Part shown: piece after piece, positions 1 to 26,200 of the stretch
How the letters are laid out: each line of letters starts with the position of its first letter
Numbering within the stretch: position 1 is the stretch's first letter
Assembly (NCBI GenBank): GCA_028564705.1
Contig: JAPXFQ010000192.1
Coordinates: 124,001 to 188,000 of the forward strand
Length of the DNA: 64,000 nt
Direction of reading: 5' to 3'
Source: Apricaphanius iberus
Taxonomy: Eukaryota > Chordata > Actinopteri > Cyprinodontiformes > Aphaniidae
Made by a program: the position numbers and the translations under genes
Notes under the pieces: generated by a model
Told to the model about the DNA's origin: nothing
What the model saw: only the letters and a program-made list of their open reading frames with translations
Databases searched by the model: none

Positions 1-238
1 CAAAGGAGCCTGTCTGTTGAAAGTTCGGGAATCGGGGAGAGACGGACGCCGTTGCCGACACGGACAACGACACGGTCACCGACACCATGGCTGAGAGACC
101 GGTAAGCGATTTTGATCACCTTACAACTAACAGTAACTTACTACAAAACCGTCCTCCCACGCATTTGATAATAATTTTACCACAGTCATTTCATTAGGTA
201 GTGCTACTTAGCTAGCTACCGAGTAAGTAGCTAAACGG
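1..238 (+). repeat. Left terminal inverted repeat with promoter, 5' UTR and shared first exon
   Basis: This block matches the reverse complement of 12,438-12,684 with a few small indels and substitutions. It contains the ATG at 87, five codons reading MAERP and a splice donor at 102. The inner edge is at ctaaacg near 232-238. It should act as promoter and 5' UTR for the integrase gene. The outer end starts at or just before base 1. Confidence 0.88.
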
Positions 239-1935
239 GGGGATAGAGGAAATAGAGAGGCAGAGAGGATTTGGTGTCAATTTATGATGAACGATGCAAA
301 ATTAATATTATAAGTGGAGAAGTACAGGGAGGTGTATGATCCCCAGCACATGTTCTACAAGGACTGTTATGTTTTGATTAAAACATAAAAAAAATAGACG
401 TGGGTTTCTTCATAAGCCGTTTATTGAACTTGCTGCTTCTACTTCACATATAGTAGACCAAAACTCACGGCAGCCCCCTGGCGGTCTAGCTGTATTAATG
501 CTTAATACTTTTAATCAACACAAGGACAACAGCTGATCAGAAACGCTTGCTGACCGTCGCGGAAAAATAGGTGTCTGGTGTGAAGGGGGGGCAGATAGAA
601 CATAACAGAACACACAACAGCCTCGCTTCTTCTATATGTTTCTTGCTCTGTCTTTTGGTGTTTTCGCTGACTACCAACCACAGAGCACACAACAGCAGCA
701 GTAACACCTCCATTGTTGTGTTTACTTTACTGATCACTGCTGACAGTAGGCTACATACGCCGTCTAAAAACGACTTCACGGCAGTGTCGACCAACTCCCC
801 CCAGATGACACTACCTACTGTATGGAAACACAACCCATCCTGGTTGTCCAAAGCGTGCCGTGCTGTACCGTGCCCTATGCAGTTACAGTGGAAAAGGGGC
901 ATTAGTTATCGAGTTCGTACAAATTAATATTGCGCTATGGACTCACATATTGTTTTGTTGTATTATAGATTACACTTTGAGAAACTTCAAGCCAAGTTGA
1001 TATTATTTTGTGTGTGTTTTTGAGAATTGTTGATCAAATTTCTGATGTTTTTATCTACAGGATGGACTTCAAGATGTGCTATTTGAACGTCTACAATCAA
1101 GGCTGCCGGATGCACTATCCAGACAACCTTTGAATTTAGATTTTCTTGAGTTTGTCTGTGAAAGTGAACTAAACTTGATTGAATCTTTTGCTGATCAAGT
1201 GTTTGTGAATAATGACATTGTTCAGCAGCTAAATAATTTGTTGCATCTTGTCCAAGGTGCAATGACAGAGGGTGCAGCTGTTTCTCACATTGAGGAAGTG
1301 GTGGGTTCCAGGGGAAGACCCACACTTGTTATTGAAAAACAGCGCCTTGAATTTCTGTTGGGATCACAGTTCTCAGTTCCATTTATTGCTGATCTTTTGG
1401 GAGTTTCGACCAGAACCATTTTTCGCAGGATGCAAAAATATGGACTTAGTGTTTCAGCAGGCTACAGTACCATGACTGATGCAGAACTGGATACCATGGT
1501 CAGAACTGTAAAGCAACAGTTTCCAAATGCAGGCTACAGAAACGTCAAAGGACAGCTCATGGCAAGGGGTAGCCGTGTACAGTGGGATAGGATCAAGGCA
1601 TCCATGCATCGCGTGGATGCAGCTGGAGTCCTGACCCGCCTATTTCAACTTGGATGTGTTGCACGAAGATCTTACTCTGTCCCAGGCCCTTTGGCATTGG
1701 TGCATGTGGACACCAACCACAAACTAATCAGGCATTTTTTATACCTACTAATTTTCCTGCCTGCTTTAAAATCTTATAATTTCTTTTGTGCTTGCATCAG
1801 TGTTCACATTTGTAAAAAAACATTACTATGTTTGTAATATATTTTTGTTTTTTTGTTATACAGGTACAACCTGATTATATTCGGGGGAGTTGATGGATTT
1901 TCCAGAAAGGTAATCACATGTCCTGTTTGCTGGTT

Positions 1936-1976
<41 letters not shown>

Positions 1977-3929
1977 TACTCTAATACAGTGGTTCTCAAT
2001 TGGGGGTACGTGAAGGCACTCCAGGGGGTACGTGAAATTTTAAAAGGCATGTTTAAAAAGTAGCATCCATGCAAAAATCCTTTACAAATAATTATTTAAT
2101 AAGTATAAGCTGATAAAATTTATTTTGTTTTCAGTAGGGCATCTCAATTCCATTATCCTAAACCTAAAACCTCTTTCTAGTTCTATCTTTTTATTTCCAA
2201 ATAGTTCAGGAGAGAATTAATGTTTTTCACATTTATGGAGTTTTAAAGGACCTAACCATAATCTTATGGTTTTAAATGGTTATATGGTCACTATTTTCAC
2301 TATAAAGATTGAATCACTGCGTTTTTGTGATGATAAATATTTGCAATAAATTCAGTTATGGATTATGTTAAATCTTCTTTTTTCAAATGTTGGAATTTTG
2401 TTCATGTTTATCAGTTCCAAAGTTTAATAAATCCGACACTGATGGCACAGTTTTCTGTTTTAGGTCTTTTTTTCCAACCAAAAATGCTTTGCGCTGGTTA
2501 GGAATACTTGGCTGAAAAATTATTTTACAGGAGGGTCATCACTAAAAAAAGGTTGAGAGCCACTGCTCTAATACATGTGATATTAATATAAGCAGGATAC
2601 ATTCATTAGTTAATCCTAATGTGTCACAATCCATTTGCACAGTGCTAAATAGTTTTTCTGTAAATTGCCAATTCTGCGTTAAGATACTATAGGTAATAAC
2701 TTTCAGTTTTACATAGGTCCTGTATTTGGATGCAGCAACGAACAACCGTGCAAGCACAGCATTCTCCTTTTTCCTTGAGGCTACCCAGATCCACGGTCTG
2801 CCATCGAGGTTATTATGCATGCTGTTATTAGACTGTTATCTGCTTTGCTTGTTTTTTTTTAATTCATTTACATGATCTCTACATATATTACATTACACTT
2901 TTTATGTTTCCTTTGTTATAGGGTACGTGGTGATCAAGGAGTGGAGAATGTAGACATAGCATACTTTATGTTTTGCAGACGGGGAACTGGTCGAGCAAGT
3001 TTTATCTCTGGAAAAAGTGTGCACAATCAAAGGCAATGTTTGACAAATAGCTTTAGAAGTAGTAATGTCAGATTGTATAAGAAAGTAGGCTACTTATAAT
3101 TATTAGCAGTAATTACACCTGATCACTTTTCTTCTTGTAATAATGAATGTTTGCATTTCATAGTTGTAACACTCAATGGGCGTATTCTTTGCACATTTAA
3201 GTTATAATTATGATTTAATATACTTACTATTTTGCAAGTCTTTTAAACCAAAAAATAATTTTTAAACAATCAGTTAGTAAATGGTATAAACTGCATATTG
3301 TAGACATGGTATCAATTCTGAAAACATTTCTGAATTATATTTGTTCTATTTCAGAATTGAGCGGATGTGGCGTGATGTGTGGATTGCAGTGACCTGTGTC
3401 TTCTACGAAGCACTTCACACTTTGGAGGAAAATGGTTTCCTAGACATTTCAGACATGGTTCACCTTTTCTGTGTGCATTATGTTTTCCTTCCTCGGCTTC
3501 AGTCTGCGCTGCACGCTTTTAAAGCTGGCTGGAATAACCATCCCCTCAGTACTGAGGGAAATCACACCCCAGAACAACTGTGGAGAATGGGCCAACGGAG
3601 CTCTTTGGTGGAAGAGGGAAATCTTGAGGTACAGTTATGTAATGTAAGTATATACAGTTACAGTAGTTCAAATTTTATTTTTTAATTATTTTCCTTCTAT
3701 TTAGGGCCCACAAGATTCTGAAATGGACGGGGAGGGTGCTGAGATGACCCTTGACACCTCTGAGAGTGGAGTTCAGGTCCCGGAAATTGTAGTACCTTTG
3801 TCTGATGAAGATCTCACAGCACTTCAGTCTGCAGTTGACCCTCTGAGTGACTCAGAATCCAATGGATGTGATATATTTATACAGGTGTTAGATTTCATCA
3901 GACGAAACACTTCAACATCCATAGAATAA
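87..3929 (+). CDS. Transposon integrase/transposase, DDE type, 7 exons, 477 aa
   Basis: Joined exons are 87-101, 1061-1731, 1864-1909, 2717-2808, 2922-3032, 3355-3628 and 3705-3929; the sum is 1,434 bases, 477 residues plus stop, open throughout. Visible parts: an N-terminal region, a helix-turn-helix at about residues 109-135 ([12 protein letters not shown]), a second IS3-like HTH around GYRNV at 163-167, then an rve-type catalytic core. The acidic triad reads D222 (HVDTNHK), D279 (VRGDQG) and E314 (IERMW), spacing D-56-D-34-E. The acidic C-terminal tail is probably disordered. Introns 2 and 5 have GC instead of GT donors (1732, 3033); the rest are GT-AG. The ATG in the TIR is preferred because its exon joins exon 2 in frame and is duplicated at the other gene. 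It is expected to cut and join the TIR ends. An AATAAA overlaps the stop at 3925. Confidence 0.82.
1910..2716 (+). other. Integrase intron 3 with (TA)n tract and hAT insertion
   Basis: Intron bounded by AAAG/gtaatc and acatag/GTCCTG. It holds a (TA)n microsatellite near 1938-1974 and the complete 579-bp hAT-type element described separately. Nothing coding is evident. Confidence 0.75.
1987..2565. mobile_element. Non-autonomous hAT (Charlie-like) element with perfect 8-bp TSD
   Basis: The ends read CAGTGGTTCTCAA and TTGAGAGCCACTG, the classic terminal inverted repeat of Charlie-type hAT elements. The element is flanked by the perfect 8-base duplication CTCTAATA at 1979-1986 and 2566-2573. It is 579 bp with no transposase ORF and lies in integrase intron 3. 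The gggggtacgtga motif is repeated near its left end. Confidence 0.9.
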
Positions 3930-4412
3930 AGAACTGCTTTCTCATATCACCCTGGACTTTTGACATTGAGTCGTGTCTTGTGACTACCTGTTATATGTAT
4001 TACATTTCCTGTGTGTATAGAACTGCTGATCAGAGGTGTCGAAGAGCTGAATCATGTGAGAAACAGCAGATGGAGAACTACTGGCTAGTGGCCCATCCCT
4101 ATCTAACCCTATTAACTGTACTCAATAAATTATCCAGAAGCCTGGTAGAGAGAAACAAATTTATTTCATTCTGCGCATTTTATCTTTGAACAAGACAAAA
4201 ATAAAACTATTTTATTACAAATGGTTTGAGGATAACAGTTAATCGATGAAGTTAGACTCAGTGCAGTGGTTAAATTCTTTTATACTGTAGCTTCAAATAA
4301 ACAATGAAGACCTAAATTTCTGGGCACTAATATAAAACGCAACCGCATGATAAAACAACCAATACTATTTCCAATCGATCAGATGAACAACAAACGAATG
4401 ATGAAACAAACC
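3930..4412. terminator. Convergent 3'-end region between integrase and HECT genes
   Basis: The two genes end tail to tail about 480 bases apart. On the plus strand, AATAAA occurs at 3925-3930 and again at 4124-4129. On the minus strand, AATAAA is seen as tttatt at 4211-4216. These are plausible opposing polyadenylation signals. No further ORF of note is present. Confidence 0.6.
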
Positions 4413-7400
4413 TCATTGTTGCCATATCTCACAGTTGTGGCATGATCCAATTGAGGCTTCTAGTGCATGTCTGAAGTCCTCATAAGTGCTGAAATGGCCA
4501 GGGATCCGGAGGGTCTGGTAACAGGTGGAGGCTTTTGGGAGCTCCCCACGCACAACCTCCACCTTCAGATCTCCAGAGAGTACCGCCCAGCCTGTCCAAA
4601 ATGTAAGGAGGTTGCAGCGAGTCTGTGTCGGTACTGAATAAATGAAAAATCAAATTAGACAAATTGGTGCAGCCCCTGATGGAATCACCAGACATGAAGG
4701 ATGTTTATTCAGTTATTTTAGACTTGTAAAAAGCTAATCACTGACATGCCACAAAACAAAAGAAATTGCTGTTGACAGGATAATATTTACAAACGTCATA
4801 GTGGGCCAAAATACAAGGAGATGAGCCAAATTTTACCTCTGCACCTACTTTTTTTTTATGCAGGGAAATGTGCATATAACGGGCAGTACAGCATAGGAAT
4901 ATAACATACCTGTTTCAATGAAATACCTAAGGTACATCCCAATCTTCATCCTTGTTTCCTTCGGGAAGTCCTCATCTTCTTCATCCACTGACTCCCCGGG
5001 CCAGGTGATGTGATCAAGCATGATCTAGTGTTTGAAAATTAAAATTCATTACTTGAAATTAGATAATCTTGCACATCAGTATCACTGAGGAGTAGAGGTG
5101 GGCGATATATCTCGTCATCGATAATATCGTCAAAGTAACTTTGAAGATATGCATTTTCCCATTATTGAGTATTTATACTGTCTCCTAAAGAAAAAGACTA
5201 GCGGTGCATGGCTTGTAAAAGAGAAGCCCATGCTTCCCTCAGAAGCCAATCAGTAATGATCAGTTTTTTAATCTCTCGACAGCACTAACAATAGCATACA
5301 TCAATAGTTAATATATAGTCACAATAACTGAGAGTTTGTCATCACTTATGTAACATTTAGTTAATAGTTATCTATCAAATACTTTTCAGCTTTTTCTTTA
5401 CCTTTTTAAAACCCCACAATGGCTGTTTTACTGAATATTTAATGAGTTACTGAGTAATTGTATCTTTAAAAGTGACATTTTTAAAGATATCGTCACATTA
5501 TCGTTATCGGGAAATAAGAAAAAATAGGGTTTTTTTTGGCATATATCGCCCACCCCTGCTCAGGAGGATTACAAAAAAATATCTATGTTTGTGATGAAAT
5601 GAAGTAAATGGCTAAATCATTAGTACAAATCTTCTTATTCATATATAATGTCTGCTTCATCACCTCAGGAATTCAGACAGGAATATATGTCTAATGAAGC
5701 AATGCCCAGGCTTTAGTACATTTCAGTTGGAAATCATACCCACACAAAGTATTACCTGGGGGTTACAGATTAAATCTTTTTCTCTTGGGAATAGAGATTC
5801 AGCCACATCCCTCCTCTCAGACAGTATTGGCCATATGCCCGTCTCTTTTATTCCCTTCCTTATCTGCTTGATCTGCACAGAAGATCTGCCAAGAATCTAA
5901 AATAAATGAGGACAATGTAGACAAGTCAAATTACAAAACAGAAATTATGATCAGAACAATAATCTATAAATTACAGGGGAAAAACATTTTGCTTCCAACA
6001 GGCTCTCCCATTACCACATGCTGCAACATATGTTGATGAAGATACATCCTATTTTGGTTGGTCAGTCGGGGCAATTCCCACATATCGCATAGGCTATTCA
6101 TTGCTGCCCTCTCTTCCTCTGACAGCTCTGTGTTGCCATCCAGCTGTATAAGAGAGATACAAAATCTATTCATTATTTTGAAACACCAAAGAAAGTTCTC
6201 AAAGAGACTATACATAATACCAGCTGGATCGTGTTTCTCTGATCTATGTCTGGGCAGTCCTCCAGTGCCAAGGTTGTTGTTTCCATCTGCCCCCCTAATA
6301 GCATGTGAACTACAGCAGGGCTGATCCCTGCCAAACCTGGACCGCCATGTAAGAAGGAATGCCCAAGCATCCTGCCTGCCATCACGAAGAGGTCAGATTC
6401 AACAAGAACTTGAGAGGCACATGGGATGAGGTGATCCCCCTGTCCCTCAAACAGTTTTGTCACATCTGCATTGCCTAAATGATAAAAAAAGGAACAAGTA
6501 TTAGCTCATTGGTTTTAATCATAATGTATTTCATCAAAGACCTAAGATGATGAATTATTTGACCAAATGTCCAGTGATGATTATAACAAAAGAAAAAGGA
6601 TGCAGGCTGCCTTAATAATTCTATTCAACATGTACAAAGCAAAAAAAAAAATATCACCAAGTATTATAAAGGATATATTAATATCATACAAACCCCAACA
6701 GAGGCTCAAACTGTCTCAGCTGGTCTATATTAGACCAAAATTGGCTAGTGTTGGTTTTGGCAATATTATAAAACTGGACATTAATGTAAAACAGAAGTTG
6801 CAAATTCATACCAAAATTGATGTGGAATCCCGACTGCAGGGTATGCATGGCAAAGCTGATGAAGTAACGACTAACACCTTCACCAACAGCAGCATCACCT
6901 ATAACACAGAAATTATTTACTGAAACAAAATTGAATGTATTGGCTCCAGCCCCCTATGACTCTACATGGCAGGGTTAAAGTGGGTTTAAAAGATGGATGG
7001 AAAATGTATGATTATTACCATGGGCAGGAACCAATCACAGATCTGTATTTTATTTCTTTTTTTATCTTTATTGTGCTCTATTCTTGCATTATTTCAGGGT
7101 TTATACAGGAATCATAGAGTTGAATTTACTACCTTTTACTATCTTTTTGACTACCTCTCCATAATTTTTACTACCATCACAACATTGAGCTGCGGCCTCT
7201 TTTGAGGTAGTGATACTGACCCATGCGTGATGATGGCTCATCCGTGACCCAAAACTGAATGTTATCCCACTTACTTCAAGGTATAAATGTGAGGCCGTCT
7301 TCAAAAGGGGTACTATATTGTGAGGCGTAATAATACGAGGAGCACTACGTCCACGCACTAAGGTCACAGGTCACGCTGCTTTTATTGACGGAAGTGAGCG

Positions 7401-10400
7401 GGAGAGAAGTCTTTTGGAGTTAGTGCGCGGACGTAGTGCTCCTCATATTATTACGCTTCACAATATAGTACCCCTTTTTATCCGCTTAGAAAATCGACAT
7501 ATTACATTTCTGTGTTACTATACTTTGTAGTGTAACAGTTCAAGGAATTGTATTTAAATAGGGAAAACGTGGAAGAGTTTGGTAGCTTCTAACAGGAGCT
7601 GATTTGGAGCTATACAGTATGTGGAAGAGGCTGCGTTTTCACTCCGTTTGCATGACAGAGCGCACAGACAAAGACCAGACAGGTACATATCAACAGTGTT
7701 GGGCAAGTTACTTCAAAACTGTAATACGTTATTTATTACTTGTTACTGTCATTTCAAAGTAATTAGTTACATTACAATATTACTGTATTTATAACTACTA
7801 TTACATTACTTTTAAGTTACTCTCACCAAAATAACTTCAAATATCGATTTGTGTAAATGACCCAAAGAGAGAGACAAACCCAGTGCTTTTATTTGTTTAT
7901 TTTTGCTTCTTCCTGGGCTTTATTTTGGTAAAAATACAAGGTAGGAACCGCACCACTGATTATAATGATATGCAGGTGTGATTCACCAGCAAACAACTTG
8001 GTGTGGTTTCTCAAGGAAAGCAACCAGCTAGAAGTGGGATTAAGGTATTTTTCATTTTCTGAATTTATTGTTTTTATTGTGAAACAGTTAAATGTTTTGG
8101 AAAAACCTAACCACTTAGCTGATGTAAAAGGGTAATAATTTTAATACTTTGTATTTTAATATTGTTATGTTTTATGTCTTTTAGTTCTTACGGTGTTTCG
8201 GAGTGAAAGGTGTTCAAAAAGGGATTTGTACAAAAGAAAAACAATGAACACAAATAAAAGACAACTCAAAACATCAGTACGCTTTACCTTTACCTGGCTG
8301 GGTCTGCTACAATTTGTCTATCTAAATGTAGCTCATGGTGCTCAATTAGCTCATTACACATCCAGTAGAAGGTGATGTGGTATCTGACTGAGCTTGGTTT
8401 GTAGTTAAAAAACAGTAAGATGCTGCTGCTTGTGGCGACAGGGATCTCGCTGACGAGTTTTCGGAAAGCTGGCGATTCCATCGTTGAAAGCGGCAGCATA
8501 TCTTCGACAACATACTCTGCCACAAGTCTCCTCACCTCTCGGGGCTGAAGTAGTGTCTCAGATCGGGAGAAGGTTCATTTAGGCTGCTTCATCGGGTGAT
8601 CGCCCTTGTCATCCTCTGCATGTCGTTTTGCTAACTTCACGTGACTGACTGTGGCACCTCAGTAAGTGTTTCATTAAATTACTGGTGCTATTTCGGGAAG
8701 TTGACAGTTCTTTGGGTGTAACACACAAAGTGCCTTGTTTTTAACAAACTTAAAGTAATGGGCATATGCCCTTCTGGAGAATGTACTATCCACTGCAGGC
8801 TCACTCATCTCGGCTCTGTCTGACTACAGGAAGGGAAATATTTTGTGCGGACTTCCCTTTTATCCTCTGCTGATCTCGCATTTTTTTTCCTTCTTCTTCT
8901 TTTACTTCTTCTTCTTCGGGGTTTATGGGCAGCCGGCATCCAATCCGCGTTTTTTTGTTTTTTGTTAATTTGTATGAAGAAAAGGAAAACTTACCACTTT
9001 ATTCCTGGTTAACGATGGATTGTAAAGCGCGTTACTGACATTTGCACCGAGTAAAATATTACATTCCCCCTCCCCTGTAATGCCTTACATTACTGCGTTA
9101 CAGCAAAAAGTAATGCTAATTACAGTAATTTATTACTTTTGTAACGCGTTACTCCCAACACTGCATATCAACTAGTCTAAGGTAAGGTAAGAAAAAAGGT
9201 CGCTATGTAAAGACGGTGGCCTATTCCTTTAACATTCAATGGTCACCAGGAAGGAAAATAAATGCATTCATGGATACGTTTTGCAAACATTTTGGAAAGA
9301 GCTTGAACATCCACAAAATGTAAGACTTCATAAAATCGCGATTAAGACTTTGTAATACTTTTTAAGTGCCATAATTTTCTCATAACTGATTTATCAACTT
9401 TTAATACTTTTTAAAACCCTGCGGACAACTTGATGTAACCCGCACTTCCCGTATCTGTGCCGTCTGCATTTTCTGTATTTTAACAGTCAATGTATGTCCC
9501 TCCGTATTTTTTTAACCTTTAAAAGTTTAATCACTTATTGACACGTGGTAAGGTGTTATTACCATAGACTTTTCATTGATATATTACAAGTTATCTGTGA
9601 ATCCACCTTTGGTCACGCTGTCGCCAGCATGCCGTTGACCCCTTTCCTGTCACGCAACTTTCATATAAAGGCCACTAGAGCCCAAAAAACTTGAACTTGA
9701 GAGGATGTGCCATGAAAAAACCCTATCAAGCTTACAGAAAGCATGATATTAATATTTTATTGTCTTTACTACTCAGGGAAGTGATGAAATATTGGTCTCA
9801 CACAGACTGTGAGGTTGAACGAAACAAAAACCCTCCAAAAGAATTTTCTTTTTTCTATTACTTTTCGAAAATTGTAGGTACCTTCAAGCACACAGTAGAG
9901 AGGGGAAGCCCATTTAGCCCTCTTGGTCTTGTAAAAGGTGATGACAGCCCTTTCTCTGTCCTCAACATCTGAGCGTAGATCCATTGTAAGGCGAAGAGGT
10001 ATCTCCACCTGTTGCTCCCTCAAGAGTCTTTCTCTGAAGATCTTAGCTGCACTTGAAGCATTTATAATTTGCTTCCATTCTATGAGGGACACACAATAAA
10101 CAAGTGTTAATGTACACATTCATGCAACAGATAAGTTTTACAATGTAATTGCAATGGCAACAAAAATGTTGAAATCTTGACGAGTACCGGGGACAGAGTC
10201 AACACCGGATGATGGTCCAGATGTGTCATTGACTGCAACTGACGCAGTGGTTCTTCCCGTTTGACCAGAATCACTGCGTGCTGATCTTGAAGTCCCCTCT
10301 CCAGCATCATTTTGAGGATATGGCAACACATTTTCTGAAAAACTAAAAAAAAAGAAGCAAATATTTGTACCATGGAATATTTGACAATAAATAGCCTACA

Positions 10401-12587
10401 TCTATCACTCTTACGAAATTTTATAAAATAGTACCCGTCTCCACAACTGCTGGCGTGAAATTCAATTTCTTCTTGTGCGATTTGCTCGTCACATATTGGG
10501 CAAGCCATCTGAGTGTGGAAAACGAAGACAAATTGTTATAGTATTTTACAAGCTAATGTAAAAAATTTTTTTTAATGAAGATGATTATGTTACTCAACTG
10601 TGGAGCTGCCTTCTCTTTGTTGAGGACTTAGCATTTCAACCTCATAAGAGCTCTGTGAATTTACAATGAAAAATAACTGAAGAAAAGAAACCTTTAGCTG
10701 ACAAAAATAGTTGTAGTTTTACTTACATCATCATTGCAGGACTTGATGTGCAGAGCCAGGAACTGTAAAGGCATAACAATCCCACACATCTTGCACATGG
10801 CCTTTGGCATTTTGGTAAATTCCGGAGCATCATGGGGAAGTGGACTTGCATCCAGCTCCTCTTGGAGTGGGACAATGTAAAGGATGTGTTTCCCATTATT
10901 TGTCACATTTTTGAGGAGTTGTGCAGTATAACCCTCTGACTCTGTGGCAACCACATTCAGTTTCCGGTGTCCTTGACCACCTAAGTAAAAATAAATACAT
11001 TACACAATAATTCTATGTAAAATTTTGTATTTGCAGCTGTTTTGCTTATATGTTGTTTTCTTGTAGCTGTGATTTGTGGTGTCTTAAGTACACCACCAGT
11101 TATGCAACAAAGGTGAATTAACATTCACATTATAATAGCTGAACAAAAACTTAGAAAAAAAACTTAGTCGCATATTTACTGTACCTGATGCTTTGTAACA
11201 AAGCCACCCTCCAGACAACTGTTTCAGTTTGGGATAATGATCTTCAAGTACACTGACAATCTAAAAATTAAAGATTTCCATGAAAAACAGTATGATGTAT
11301 AGTTTAGATAAATGATATATAGTTTAGATAAAATGCATACATAAGCCGGGCATGCACTCACACACCTTGAAGGTCAAAGGTTGCATCAATCCATAAAAAA
11401 AGCAAACAAAACTTTAGGAAAAGCTAATCTTAACTGACCAAACCTTTTATACATAAAATTATACCCGATTTAAAAAAGTAAGCTGCTATGATACACAGGT
11501 AATTTATACAATTATGTGAAATTACCTCATCGTGACAAGAATTGTCAGCCACTATCACAGTTCTTTTCCCCAAGCCTGCCTCAAGGAGTCTGATATATTC
11601 AGATGCCTTTGGAGTGTGATCAGTTGGAGAAGCGATAAGAAAAAACTGCAGCGTAACCGATTTTACAGGCAGTGCTGGGGACATTCTGGATAAGGCAAGA
11701 GGGCGTCTCTTGGTGCGGATCACTTCACGGCGAAAATAACCTGGAAATGACCTGCATCACAGGAAGACATACACTGAACAATAAATCTTGAAAATATTTG
11801 TTTTAGACCACACTGACATTTTAACTCTGTTCATCCCCCTTTACAGGATCTATAAGTACTGGAAAACAAGTTTCATGTACTTAAATGATAAAAAAATAAA
11901 ACAGCTGTCCATACAGGCAACAACATTAGCTTACTCTTAAATTGACACCCGCTGATGTTGTGCATATCACCTTTAGTAACACAGAGAACACTGGAATAGT
12001 ATCTAATATGCAATTAAAATCTTCAAATCTTCTGGTGTGGTTGTACTGTATTACTCTATCAACGAAAAAGTATGAAATTGTATCACTACCGTCGCATTTC
12101 ATTTGCAACAGATTGGGTTGTCACAGCAGGAGTTGAGAAGGCCAACCTTGCAAGGGCTTGGTCTGTCCCTCCCTGGCTACTTTCAAGTGGCTGTCCAGAT
12201 GGCTGGTGCCTTGAAATGAGGCTGAGTAGTGATTGTGCGGCATCTGCAATAGCAGCATAGTTGTCCTACAAGAAACATAAGCAGAAAAGTGTTATCAAGT
12301 GATTTTTCGAATAGAGAAACCTCCAACCGAGTGGCCAGATCAAATTAAAATTTTCATTATTTCACACAATAGTTTCATGATATAGCCAAAAGTCAGCTAT
12401 AGTAAAAGACGCCTTGTGGATAACGGCTCATTGGTGCGTTTAGCTACTTACTCGGTAGCTAGCTAAGTAGCACTACCTAATGAAATGACTGTGGTAAAAT
12501 TATTATCAAATGCGTGGAAGGACGGTTTTGTAGTAAGTTACTGTTAGTTGTAAGGTGATCAAAATCGCTTACCGGTCTCTCAGCCAT
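4413..12587 (-). CDS. UBZ-HECT E3 ubiquitin ligase, G2E3-like, 15 exons, 738 aa
   Basis: Exons on the minus strand: 12587-12573, 12265-12090, 11751-11526, 11260-11185, 10980-10727, 10652-10599, 10508-10435, 10342-10188, 10079-9882, 6898-6812, 6474-6221, 6143-5975, 5898-5756, 5024-4910 and 4633-4413. They total 2,217 bases, 738 codons plus stop, with consistent phases. Two UBZ-like zinc fingers (C-x2-C ... H-x3-C) lie at about residues 227-246 and 270-289. A HECT domain follows from about 345 to the end, with signatures GEGVSRYF, HGGPGLAGISPAVV and the C-lobe loop LPKASTCYQTLRIP, whose cysteine (about residue 703) would be the catalytic thioester residue. Exon 6 uses a weak donor (ACA/gttgag) and may be skipped without changing frame. 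HECT ligases transfer ubiquitin to substrates; its role in the element is unknown. Resembles multicopy fish genes annotated as G2/M-phase-specific E3 ligase-like. Confidence 0.82.
5093..5558. mobile_element. Short hAT-like MITE in a HECT intron
   Basis: The ends carry matching inverted repeats containing AGGTGGGCGATATAT on the left and ATATATCGCCCACCCCTG on the right. Flanks ctgaggag (5085-5092) and ctcaggag (5559-5566) form an 8-bp duplication with one mismatch. 466 bp, A+T-rich, no ORF. Located between HECT exons 13 and 14. Confidence 0.78.
7303..7478. repeat. Foldback MITE with ~58-bp inverted arms
   Basis: Left arm 7303-7360 (aaaaggggtactatattgtg...) and right arm 7420-7478 (...cacaatatagtacccctttt) are near-perfect inverted copies around a ~60-bp centre. 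No clear target duplication was found. It resembles a short palindromic MITE; the family is not recognised. Confidence 0.75.
7694..9163. mobile_element. Non-autonomous hAT element, 1,470 bp, perfect 8-bp TSD
   Basis: The ends read CAGTGTTGGGCAAGTTACT and AACGCGTTACTCCCAACACTG, the inverted termini of a widespread fish hAT family. The 8-bp duplication CATATCAA is perfect at 7686-7693 and 9164-9171. The interior has long runs of degenerate gtaattacatta-like subterminal sequence and no convincing ORF. Confidence 0.9.
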
Positions 12588-12684
12588 GGTGTCGGTGACC
12601 GTGTCGTTGTCTCCGTGTCGGTCATACGGCGATCCGTCTCTCCCGATTCCCGAACTTTCAACAACAAGGACAGGCTACCTTTGG
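12438..12684 (-). repeat. Right terminal inverted repeat with promoter, 5' UTR and shared first exon
   Basis: Inverted copy of 1-238. The ATG lies at 12,587-12,585 on the minus strand, followed by the same MAERP codons and a donor at 12,572. It supplies the first coding exon of the HECT ligase gene. The 5' UTR portion differs from the left copy by a few short indels, such as around 12,612-12,640, so the TIRs are not freshly homogenised. Confidence 0.88.
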
Positions 12685-12689
12685 CAACG

Positions 12690-14960
12690 AGTCTGTCAGT
12701 CATTGGCGCATCACACTGTCAGTCCTACTTGTTCTTACATGTGATTGGACTACACGATTGGGCACGTGTCCCTCCCCGGAGCGATGAGTTTTATTTGTTT
12801 TTTTTTTTCAGCGAGTGTGAGTTTCAGAGTTTCGAATCGTAAAGCACCGAGAGAACGCTGCCAAAAATCACGTCATCGCAACCAGACGAATCTACGAAAG
12901 ACAGATGTTGGAAAGTTGAATATTTTTTCAGATATCATATTACAAGCTTTCAAAGGTTTTTTGCAAAAATAGCGTGGTGGGAAAACACTGCCATATTTGA
13001 AACTGTGAAAAAGCTTACTTGAAAAACGGCAAAGGTGAAACAAGCAGTTTGAATCCCTGAAAACGTGAGGCTGAAACTCTGTACTTTGCATGTTGAATTA
13101 ATGAAAACATAAATGCTATTTACAAAATTATAATTGCAGAGATTCAAATTTTATTTTCAGACTTTCAAAACTTTATTTCAGGTTTTAATTGTTCAAATAC
13201 TGATTTTCAAGGTTTCAAAACTTGTTTTTTCAGTTTCAGATTATGTCATCGATCTCACTTCATATGATTCTACACAGAAAAAAACCTATAGCCTACATAA
13301 ATTACAAAAACAGGGTAACTGTTCATCAAACTATTTATTTTTTGTGATGAGGAGAACAATAACCAGGAACAGGAGTTGCATTTTGTTTACTTTATAATTA
13401 CCTATCAGACTCCTATAGTTCTACAAAGTTTAGATACTCCGGTAAAGTTAGAACTTTTTTTTTCTCATGATCCCAACAAATTAGCTAAACAATGCTCAGC
13501 TGTGAGCACAACAGACAGTCAGCCTAAAACACATTCCTACTGCGGACAAAGTACACAAACCCCCGCTTTGAACGCGTCTACTCTTTTCCCCCCACGTATT
13601 TAGTAAAGATTTCTTACCTTTCAAGCAAACATGACGCCAGCTGCAGGTCTTTTCTCATACCGAGAGATTCAGCGTTCTCCTCTCAAACGTCGCCCGCACC
13701 GGCTCTTTGCCTACATCGATCCAACTAGTGTTTCTCCCTCTTTGGAGCGCTGGAATAAACTCTTGGTTAATTTGGGCTGGAGTGTTGGTGGTGCTTGAAG
13801 CAGCTCTTTTCTTGTTCTCGGCAGAATCATAGGGCAGAATCCATGCTTCCAACGCTATCCCTGCTACAGTTTCAGCTGCAGGAAGCGATAGAACGTGAAC
13901 GCGCCTGACGTTGTCACACATTAGGAGGCGCAGAGGGGGCGCTACTTTTTCGACCCGAACAGTAACAAAAAATAATTAATAAAGTTATTTTACAGGCATG
14001 TACAAGCAACCACAGTGAAAAGCCCAGGGCTCTTTTTACAGACCAGGACATTGCTGGATTATGTATGAGGAATACATTTTGCAGCTCTATACATTTATTT
14101 GCTGTTAAACTTCCTTAGAGTCCCTTTAATGCCATCCAGACATAGACATATCCGTCACAAACCAGGCATGGACTGAAACGTGGACCCAAACATTAGTTAC
14201 GCCCCGCGGAACATTATTCAGCAAAAAACACATTTTTTTTTAAATTAACAAATTTTATTTTTGATAAAAAACTAAATTAAAAGGTATAATCTGTCCCTAA
14301 TGTAAAGGCGCCACAGAACATTTTTGAAAAAGAAATCAAATATATTTTTGAGATGCACTGGCAGGAAGTGACACCAGAGGTCAAACATTGCTTCCTGTGT
14401 AGAATCAGAAAAAGAGTTGTGGTTCGCAGTACTGACTTTTCAAACTTAATTTTACGAAATTGTTCAATGGTCTGTCAACTTCAATTGGAGACTCTTATAA
14501 GACCCTCATGGATTGACAAATATCGGCTTTTATCGCATTGGCGCAAATGCATGACGCTAAACGTCCACTGAGTAAGTTTTTTTGTTAATTTTGACTGACA
14601 TTTCATATATTTTTACACGTTTTATCATTACTTTAATTGCTCAGCTTTTTTAAGAGTTCCCCAAAAAGGAAGCAATTTTATTTGGGTACCCAGAAACGAA
14701 CGTATTTTAATATTTATGGCCATATTTCTGCGAATTTTATGGTCGACCTTTTGGTCAGTCTGATGGCAGAAACCCCAGGTGATGCATCATACCTGTCTAA
14801 AACCAGCTAGCTATTTTCTTATCAAAATTTAACCTGAAAGACTCCCAAGCGCCTTCGGCTGATAGGATACACTCAATGTTATTGTGATTGTTAACCTTGT
14901 TTTCTCAGTGTTTTTCTCCCCATAGAAGCTCCACATGGTCTGGTATCCTGCTCAACTCTC
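12690..14960. other. Non-coding stretch right of the two-gene transposon
   Basis: 12,800-13,350 is rich in tttcaaa/gtttcag words, resembling a degenerate internal repeat. 13,655-13,921 is open on the minus strand (88 codons, ending near a possible gtatga donor) and 13,631-13,797 is open on the plus strand from an ATG (55 codons). Neither matches a family I know. The rest is A+T-rich with no recognisable gene. Confidence 0.5.
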
Positions 14961-23270: not shown

Positions 23271-26200
23271 CTAACTGAGCAGTTTATTCTTTAGAGAGTG
23301 GACCCTGGGAGTGCACATCTCAGACCCGATTCCCATGAACAGGCGCTGAATCACCTCAAAAGTATATTTCATCTCTTTTGGATAGTCAAGGTTCAACATG
23401 TACAGCAGGCCCATCAGGTTCACAAAAGCGTTGGGTACATCACCAAGATGACGCATGACAATCTTTTCCTCAATGACAATGGCAACATCGTTGTAGGAAA
23501 CTGGAAGGGGCTCTTTCACATCTTCAATGACCAAAAGGATTCCAATCACCATTCCTTTGATGAAGTCCTCCCCAGGGTCTGTTGGCTTCATGCAAAAACA
23601 AACAAAAAACAAAAAGGTATCGTGTTTCTTTAGTGCCAAAATCCGCACGCATAAAAACACTAATCAGTGAGCATAAAGATCACTCTCTGCTTGCTCGCAG
23701 TCTCTGTACACGCGCGCGCCGTCACTCTCTGCGCGTTCGCTGTCACTCTCCTGCGCTCGCTGTCTTACTCCATGCCTTCTGCTCGCTTGCCTTTGTTGAC
23801 TTTTGGCACTTTGGGGGCGGGCTTTGCATTGACGGACTGCCAACCCTCCTCCTTTCTGATTGGCCACTACTGTCTCCAGGTCAGAGCCAATCCGAGGCAG
23901 AGTAGGGCGGGTCATCATCAGACAAAAAAGAGGTAAGTTGAGGAACAGACAGATATGCTATGCTAGGCTATAACAGCAGTGGCTATGTTTCTAGTTACTA
24001 TGAAAAATTGCTGACCCAGCACATAAAATTCTCATAACCTGCCGTTATAGTGGTCAGATCACAGTGAAGGAAATCTGGCAGTTTCCTGGGGGAATTTTTT
24101 TTTCCATGAAGCTATCATGGCTGAGCAAGTAAGTCTTACACAGTTAGCCTATCCCTCAGATTTTCTTTTGATATGATTTGATTTTATGACTGGACCAGTG
24201 GGGTAGTTTGATTTAAAAAATATTTTTTTTTGTCAGTGGTATGTTTATGAGTTTTACATAAGTTACCAAAGTAAACAGTGTTTGATTTTATACATTGTCA
24301 CAGATGTTGTTTACCCTTGTTGCCATTGAAATTTGGTGACTAAAACCATATAGTGTCTAAAATATCAGTTTCCCACTGCTAAAGTGTCCAGCAGCCACAG
24401 AATGTCAAATAGGAGACAGGCTTTGTTCTCACCTCATACAAGCAGAGTCATCCCAAGCCCCCTGGACTGCAAAATTGTGGTTAAAAGTGGGCAGACGGTG
24501 TCTTCTAACTACAGCCCTGACACACTCATGATGGGGCTGTGCCAGATAAACTGGGATGTCTGGTAAAGCCTTACTTTACTTTAGTCTGGGTTGTTCACTG
24601 TAATGTAAATGTGTTCTTTTAAATCACATTAAAATCCTATTAATTAATTCTATTGATATTCTGTCATTAATTACAGTTCTACTAAATTGAAATTATACTT
24701 GCAATTATAATATTAACAATTAGACCCACATGATAGTCCTGCAGAGCTGATATGAAGTAAACATACAGAAGCGGGTTCAGGTGGGTTTACTCTTGTGTAA
24801 AGGAGCACAACTGCAGATGGGGGAAAGAGAATAAATCGTTCCACATTGCTGCATACATTCTATATTTAAATTTACAACTTTTTAATACATAAATGAAAAG
24901 TGGTAAAATGTTTTTTAAAATAGACAAACAAGGAAAGAAAAAATATTTATTTTGCTGCCGCCAACCGCAATGATGACCCGCCCTACTCTGCCTCGGATTG
25001 GCTCTGACCTGGAGACAGTAGTGGCCAATCAGAAAGGAGGAGGGTTGGCAGTCCGTCAATGCAAAGCCCGCCCCCAAAGTGCCAAAAGTCAACAAAGGCA
25101 AGCGAGCAGAAGGCATGGAGTAAGCCTATCAGGTAAGACAGCGAGCGCAGGAGAGTGACAGCGAACGCGCAGAGAGTGACGGCGCGCGCGTGTACAGAGA
25201 CTGCGAGCGAGCAGAGAGTGATCTTTATGCTCACTGATTATGGTTTTTATGCGTGCGGATTTTGGCACTAAAGAAACACCATAAAAAGGTGCCTGTGCTT
25301 TAGACAGTTTGGCTATATAGTGTATCCACACAGAGGATGCCTGAAATGATGTGTAACCATTCCCATTGTGAACTAGTTTTTGTATCAATAAACAACATTT
25401 TGCTGCTTACCTCACATCTCTTCATCAATGTGGAAGGATTTTCCTTCATGTACCATGGCAGTCCCTGCAAAGCTGCTGCTCTCTTCCTTTGGTTTGATGC
25501 CTGCAAAAGCACAATACGTGAATTCAGTTGATATCAGAACTCTGATTTTTGTCATCCCTCAAATGACAGAAACTGAGCTTTCAGTTCAAAGAGGTAACTT
25601 GAACTCTGGCCTTCTCTCCATCTACTCCATCTTACAGAGCCATTTTCTTATTTATTCAGTCTGTATCAAATGCCTATCCAAGTACATTAATTAGAGGAGG
25701 TTTACTGTCTGTCATAATCTACATCCTGGTCCCTCTCCTCAGTGGGGTTGCACAATTAATGTGGACCACAACTACAACAAATATGCACTTACATCCTTGT
25801 CGAGACTCTCCATTAAGGATGTCATGTCTTGAACTTCCTCGAAGCGCTTCAACCGGAATAACTGAAGAAGTTTATGCAGATGGCTGTCCAAACCCTCATA
25901 GAATTTATTGATGTCCATTGAAGTGAGCCTGGTGAATTCCTTGGCGATCTATGTGGAGAAGTAACATTACAGTTTTAGTTCAAGTTAAAAGTCACCTAAA
26001 TGTTCACATTTCAGCACTACAACTGACATGTTGTCAGACATGTGACGTACAGCGGAGACCTGTCTCAAGGTGCATATTTCATTAATATTAACTTCAACCT
26101 CAACGATCTGTGTCCTCAGATGGGCAGATTGGCTTGTGTGACAGGTTATTGAGTTTTATTAATGTTTACATCAGACTGATATGTCAGTGCTTTGTTAAGT

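Follow-up and report, generated by a model that had tools for sequence, protein, structure and literature searches.

The 64,000-nucleotide window analysed here (contig C112, positions 124001-188000, of the 1.2-Gb genome assembly of the fish Apricaphanius iberus) holds a DNA transposon whose two terminal inverted repeats (TIRs, or arms) carry the same short coding exon and splice donor, the left copy in frame with a DDE-type integrase and the right copy in frame with a probable HECT ubiquitin ligase. From comparisons between copies, between families of the same genome and between proteins of other fish, we consider it highly probable that each arm is a portable gene start serving two convergent genes, kept like its partner by arm-to-arm copying. 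The kind of transposon is already known, and its ends and target site duplications (TSDs) support kinship with IS3EU and GingerRoot elements; the common coding exon looks new.

One exon at the head of two genes

The sequence ATGGCTGAGAGACCG, encoding MAERP and followed by the donor gtaagc, lies at 87-101 on the forward strand as the first exon of the integrase gene and again at 12573-12587 on the reverse strand as the first exon of the HECT gene. Exon and donor are unchanged in all six arms of three full-length copies, namely the window copy and two others (C1092 and C1005), which bears out what the original prediction had read from the window alone. The left exon joins in phase 0 to the acceptor at 1061, opening an integrase of 477 residues, and the right exon joins in phase 0 to HECT exon 2 at 12265. 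As far as the sequence can tell, the same residues appear to open two unrelated proteins, one a probable transposition enzyme and the other probably a ubiquitin ligase.

The same layout in other families

The genome was searched with one stretch of each gene and yielded many relatives; the resulting tables are lower bounds. Where integrase and HECT matches lie within 25 kb of each other, 38 of 40 contigs have them convergent, in a count for which matches were typed by hand and extra exons of a locus left out; the other two (C1736 and C824) have them on the same strand and are perhaps damaged or neighbouring elements. Arms were sought at six integrase loci (C136, C1001, C1175, C427, C117 and C217) and later at C1223 and C1440, and both were found for C136, C1001 (through C371), C1223 and C1175. 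The initial view that C1175 and C1223 lack a HECT-side arm was overturned by reading further sequence (for C1175, the next 4.5 kb).

Each of these families repeats the arrangement with its own sequence. C136 has a 933-bp repeat at both ends, 99.8% identical, holding ATGGCGGCGCATCTCGGGGGTCAACCCTCAGAA (MAAHLGGQPSE) and then gtaag, with integrase exon 2 (NLLKQHILERL..) and HECT exon 2 (QVVENMAQALVSSL..) each following AG in phase 0. The arm exon of the C1001/C371/C1223 family is MAANSETGRTFGTTNNPW, continued in phase 0 by VLLRRNILERL in the integrase and by GQGAGSEKNVESVARNL in the HECT gene; the integrase-end arm of C1001 and the HECT-end arm of C371 are 93.7% alike over 924 bp, the two arms of C1223 stand on one contig and are 85% alike, and elements of the C1001/C1223 family begin TATGGGGG. 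C1175 has a 1,735-bp repeat, 99.2% alike, with the exon MAQNTNDGAS leading to EILLNHLLERL (integrase) or DTQADEIVESARRLL (HECT). A phase-0 AG acceptor thus precedes HECT exon 2 in C136, C371 and C1175 and integrase exon 2 in C136, C1001 and C1175. In the window family, C136 and C1001 the arm has its inner edge past the donor, within intron 1; in C1175 the arm reaches farther, taking in the first 24 bases of integrase exon 2. At E 1e-5 no DNA match links the arms of one of these four families to those of another, and what the families have in common is therefore layout, not sequence.

A further candidate exon, MAEQ followed by gtaag at C117 and C217, was rejected: it belongs to a dispersed repeat with at least 21 genome matches and has no inverted partner on its contig. 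One copy of this repeat lies in the window at 23930-24329, and 13 of its 21 listed matches are at least 97% identical.

Probable copying between arms and the marks of a proposed gene start

From family to family three things persist: a start that reads ATGG, a short peptide, variable in composition, and a phase-0 donor. The arms of C136 and C78 are 79-80% alike, yet C136 and the two C78 arms agree at every base of a 93-bp run over the ATG, exon and donor, a length equalled in 35 of 20,000 shuffles of the difference events. Between these two elements 35 difference events are common to both arms of each, while 19 separate the two C78 arms, none occurs within C136 and none tracks one end across families. 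The arms of C136 and C78 have thus changed jointly, which argues that one arm has overwritten the other, through conversion or in the course of transposition, in line with the original suggestion that the TIRs are corrected together. A direction can be read in C1175, whose HECT-end arm (L076) carries the integrase exon 2 acceptor and the first 24 bases of that exon, a remnant that marks the integrase end as the source of this arm.

Upstream of the ATG, observed/expected CpG in the four families is 0.79-1.12, against 0.57 in the window between 20 and 60 kb. CCAAT boxes number three within 163 bases of the ATG in the window arm and two in C1175. Taken with the persistent ATG, exon and donor and the 93-bp run, these upstream features suggest to us that the arm is a gene start.

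Shared N-termini in other fish

The named best protein matches in the protein collection are from teleost fish. The collection yielded 949 integrase relatives, of which 120 were listed, and two overlapping sets of 46 and 91 HECT relatives. N-termini of integrase and HECT relatives with a Met near the start (119 x 111) were ranked blind to names; the fused model P0154 was left out, and the removal of ten proteins lacking a species gave 112 x 108 = 12,096 pairs, of which 171 are same-species. The five best pairs are all same-species, a result reached in none of 20,000 label shuffles, where the maximum was two. Identical N-terminal residues shared by integrase and HECT protein number 61 in Brachyhypopomus gauderio, 17 in Acanthochromis polyacanthus, 11 in Oryzias javanicus (adjacent gene numbers) and 10 in Trichomycterus rosablanca, and in Oreochromis niloticus 8 of 9 residues after the Met are identical. 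The sixth-ranked pair crosses the genera Leuciscus and Phoxinus, and scores then drop from 35 to 25. On the strength of these protein sequences, relatives in several other fish seem to have the same arrangement.

One pair among the removed proteins, P0011 and P0167, has both members beginning with MAQNTTTNDGAS. The integrase frame of P0011 runs without a break for 482 residues, and none of the contigs on which it lies exceeds 1,981 bases; a first intron of ~1.17 kb such as that of its C1175 relative would not fit, and P0011 therefore looks like a spliced transcript.

Several other database entries deserve mention. In Melanotaenia boesemani the residues MAEAQ open two genes with adjacent numbers (LOC121653126 and LOC121653125), five residues that prove little. 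P0154 and P0224 (Brachyhypopomus and Dissostichus mawsoni) combine integrase and HECT parts in one protein, perhaps convergent genes merged by gene finding. P0018, an integrase relative from Labeo rohita, is publicly named 'Botulinum neurotoxin type D'. Since it matches the window integrase along 97% of its length, the toxin name looks erroneous.

Extent, ends and copies of the element

The element is larger than first drawn. Its arms had been put at ~240 bp and its limits at 1..12684; positions 63-237 and 12437-12611 are indeed 99% complementary, and the inverted repeat extends outward beyond the window start, giving arms of ~0.83-0.9 kb and placing window base 1 inside the left arm and not at the element edge. 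Comparison with C1092 and C1005 sets the element at 13,925 bp, from window position -660 to 13,264 (contig C112 from 123,340). The inner part of the left arm covers 1-237 on the forward strand, its outer 660 bp preceding the window, and the right arm covers 12437-13264 on the reverse strand, ending in CTTCATA. The termini TATGAAG..CTTCATA recur in all three full-length copies and in a short derivative of 861 bp (L007).

Duplications of the fixed length that the original prediction had proposed looking for, here 6 bp, flank the window copy (TGATTC, its right copy at 13265-13270 and its left copy preceding the window), C1092 (TTCAAC) and L007 (GAGGAA on both sides); none is found at C1005 or C1223, so that they are present in three of five elements with both ends read. 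Together with the TA..TA ends, they support the IS3EU kinship first suggested. The two other full-length copies that a search of the assembly returned, C1092 and C1005, measure 14,024 and 16,203 bp, and the three copies are ~97.5-99% alike across most of their length; ~140-190 bp of the window copy's outer left arm are unmatched in the other five arms. From the likeness of the copies and the TSDs at two of three, recent mobility of the element, as originally supposed, is plausible. Rfam gave no match at gathering score over 1-14000.

The element has also left short palindromic derivatives (L014-L026 and L007), and ~34 genome places match the first 50-83 arm bases. In the 13 derivatives compared, the arms join near one point, at ~52 and 83 in window numbering, a junction just before the ATG at 87 that keeps the upstream DNA and loses the start codon.

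Gene models

After the shared exon, the integrase model continues on the forward strand through exons 2 (1061-1731, acceptor ctacag, GC donor), 3 (1864-1909), 4 (2717-2808), 5 (2922-3032, GC donor), 6 (3355-3628) and 7 (3705-3929, with the stop), seven exons with an open frame. GC donors thus begin two of its six introns, 1732-1863 (gcattt) and 3033-3354 (gcaatg), and the same donors occur in C1005. Pfam places an rva_4 integrase core in the protein (E 2.3e-72), preceded by weak helix-turn-helix matches and accompanied by a weak rve match; neither the MULE nor the HHCC family is among the Pfam matches, and solved structures yielded no protein convincingly related to the integrase in sequence. 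The integrase frame is open in all three copies, whose codons differ by synonymous:non-synonymous changes of 5:6, 3:1 and 2:5, too few for a test of selection.

The HECT model encodes 724 residues in 15 exons, which on the reverse strand follow the shared exon as exons 2 (12090-12265, acceptor cttgtag), 3 (11526-11751), 4 (11185-11260), 5 (10727-10980), 6 (10599-10652), 7 (10435-10508), 8 (10188-10342), 9 (9882-10079), 10 (6812-6898), 11 (6221-6474), 12 (6015-6143), 13 (5756-5896), 14 (4910-5024) and 15 (4413-4633, with the stop). Exon 6 is uncertain and, having the weak donor gttgag, may be skipped; its length of 54 bases is divisible by three, and its loss would leave the frame intact. The gene is a probable HECT ligase by sequence: Pfam HECT matches the window protein at E 1.7e-7, a putative catalytic Cys stands in the motif ASTCYQT of exon 15, a Cys column is conserved in at least 90% of 15 relatives, and the profile matches the solved HECT ligase AREL1 (E 0.0016). 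Of the original label, a UBZ-HECT ligase in frame with the right arm, the reading frame and the HECT domain stand; two CxxC..H..C stretches are present, CKMCG..HIKSC in exon 5 and CPICDEQ..HASSC in exon 7, and finger matches for this gene are found only below the curated cut-off and in relatives.

The claim that both genes stay open across 7 and 15 exons is right for the window copy and, for the integrase, in every copy; the HECT gene is broken in C1092 by a stop at codon 405 and loss of the donor after exon 12, and in C1005 by an interruption of ~2.2 kb in exon 5. The long HECT intron at 6900-9870 contains an inverted pair (7303-7361/7420-7478) and other repeat-like sequence, and because both other copies align across this region, the repeat-like intron predates their spread.

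Discussion

Our comparisons suggest how a pair of transposon ends might do the work of a gene start for two different proteins. Each arm would consist of upstream DNA acting as promoter, a 5' untranslated region, the ATG with the few N-terminal codons that follow it, and a splice donor in phase 0; in the host, the exon of the left arm would be spliced to the integrase and that of the right arm to the HECT ligase, the two genes converging. Copying would keep the arms alike, with the HECT end apparently rewritten from the integrase end in at least one event, and the two genes may in this way be co-regulated, as the original prediction proposed. Because the arm peptide varies between families, initiation is a likelier role for the exon than that of a fixed tag. 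The ligase might help the element against its host or control the transposase, and we speculate that it may target the transposase or some factor of the host for degradation.

Several observations weigh against this picture of a shared gene start. The HECT frame is open in one copy of three, exon 1 is damaged in the right arm of C1898, and C1440 shows neither an arm pair nor a HECT N-terminus in the stretches examined, its candidate exon being MAQQAL. Among the matches listed, integrases with no HECT match on their contig include C427, C117, C217, C175, C1668 and others; CCAAT boxes are absent upstream of the ATG in C136 and C1001; and some of the 38 convergent contigs are near-identical copies. 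Among proteins, the remaining 166 of 171 same-species pairs have no long common N-terminus, which we explain by many truncated models and by several families per species, and 5 of the 10 pairs that agree in their first five or more residues cross species, short prefixes being weak proof. Database entries with common N-termini are mostly predicted models that possibly lack transcript support.

The broken HECT genes, together with the HECT-end arm of C1175 that derives from the integrase end and still holds a piece of integrase exon 2, would also fit an arm that belongs to the integrase only, its right-hand counterpart being a passive exon copy brought along by a long repeat and the HECT gene starting elsewhere or being dead. 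We regard this as unlikely, because in all four families examined the arm exon and HECT exon 2 join in phase 0 and because in five other fish the HECT models start with the same or nearly the same residues as the integrase of their own species, over up to 61 residues. Predicted models would also fit a shared exon that is an artefact of gene finding or assembly, with pipelines seeing one ATG exon upstream of two genes; this we judge very improbable, given that the arms exist as DNA on separate contigs and in separate families, that the models of several species agree, that a pipeline can share an exon only if the exon is present at both places, and that P0011 behaves like a transcript. Least probable of all, to our minds, is that two host genes were captured between inverted repeats and do not form the transposon's own gene set. 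HECT-type ligases are also host genes, and 10 contigs have HECT matches with no integrase match within 25 kb; against capture stand the TA..TA ends, the 6-bp TSDs at two of three full copies and at one short derivative, and the convergence on 38 of 40 contigs, whose sequences range from near-identical down to ~30-70% alike.

Two other systems invite comparison. In herpes simplex virus, a viral system, an inverted-repeat promoter and 5' exon serve two different inward-reading genes, US1 and US12, and the shared leader is non-coding. In the maize element MuDR, which belongs to another transposase family, both ends share a promoter and 5' leader and are not known to share a coding exon that carries a donor. 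The TIRs of Mu elements contain promoters, and two genes of MuDR are transcribed convergently, the transposase gene mudrA and mudrB of unknown function (PMC3276141), located at TIRA and TIRB (PMC8224964). The fish element resembles MuDR in having two convergent genes, and promoter activity in the TIRs is a feature that the fish arms would share.

Probable closer relatives offer a different comparison. IS3EU families, which join with GingerRoot, are reported to have TA..TA termini and usually 6-bp TSDs, and the element described here is like them in its TA..TA ends, 6-bp TSD and integrase-like DDE transposase; the fish families differ in their arms of 0.83-1.7 kb with a coding exon for two genes and in their HECT gene, which the accessible part of that paper does not mention (PMC10045372). 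The TET-bearing IS3EU elements of fungi likewise pair a transposase with a second enzyme gene in opposite orientations and have 6-bp TSDs, but there the second gene is an alpha-kinase and not a HECT ligase, with TET/JBP between the two, and in the text available the TIRs are stated only as longer than 30 bp, with no common exon mentioned (PMC12730594). Within the open-access literature, so far as its text was accessible and with Repbase reports outside that scope, we found no description of a HECT gene in IS3EU or of a coding exon in both TIRs.

Terminal repeats are usually viewed as transposase binding sites and sometimes as promoters; here they hold a coding start and a donor, and the arms in four families of one genome carry a coding exon in phase for two unrelated proteins. 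The arrangement would account for the N-termini common to some unrelated fish database proteins and provide a marker for finding such elements. It also gives a testable route by which a eukaryotic element may keep two genes in step, arm copying updating both. It is possible, though we advance it tentatively, that this fish transposon lineage, having no operon, holds its two genes under one control through mobile ends that are gene starts, with a phase-0 exon able to precede any other exon of that phase: repeated overwriting of one arm by the other would leave a single current promoter and start codon, and transposase and ligase would be silenced, or escape silencing, together.

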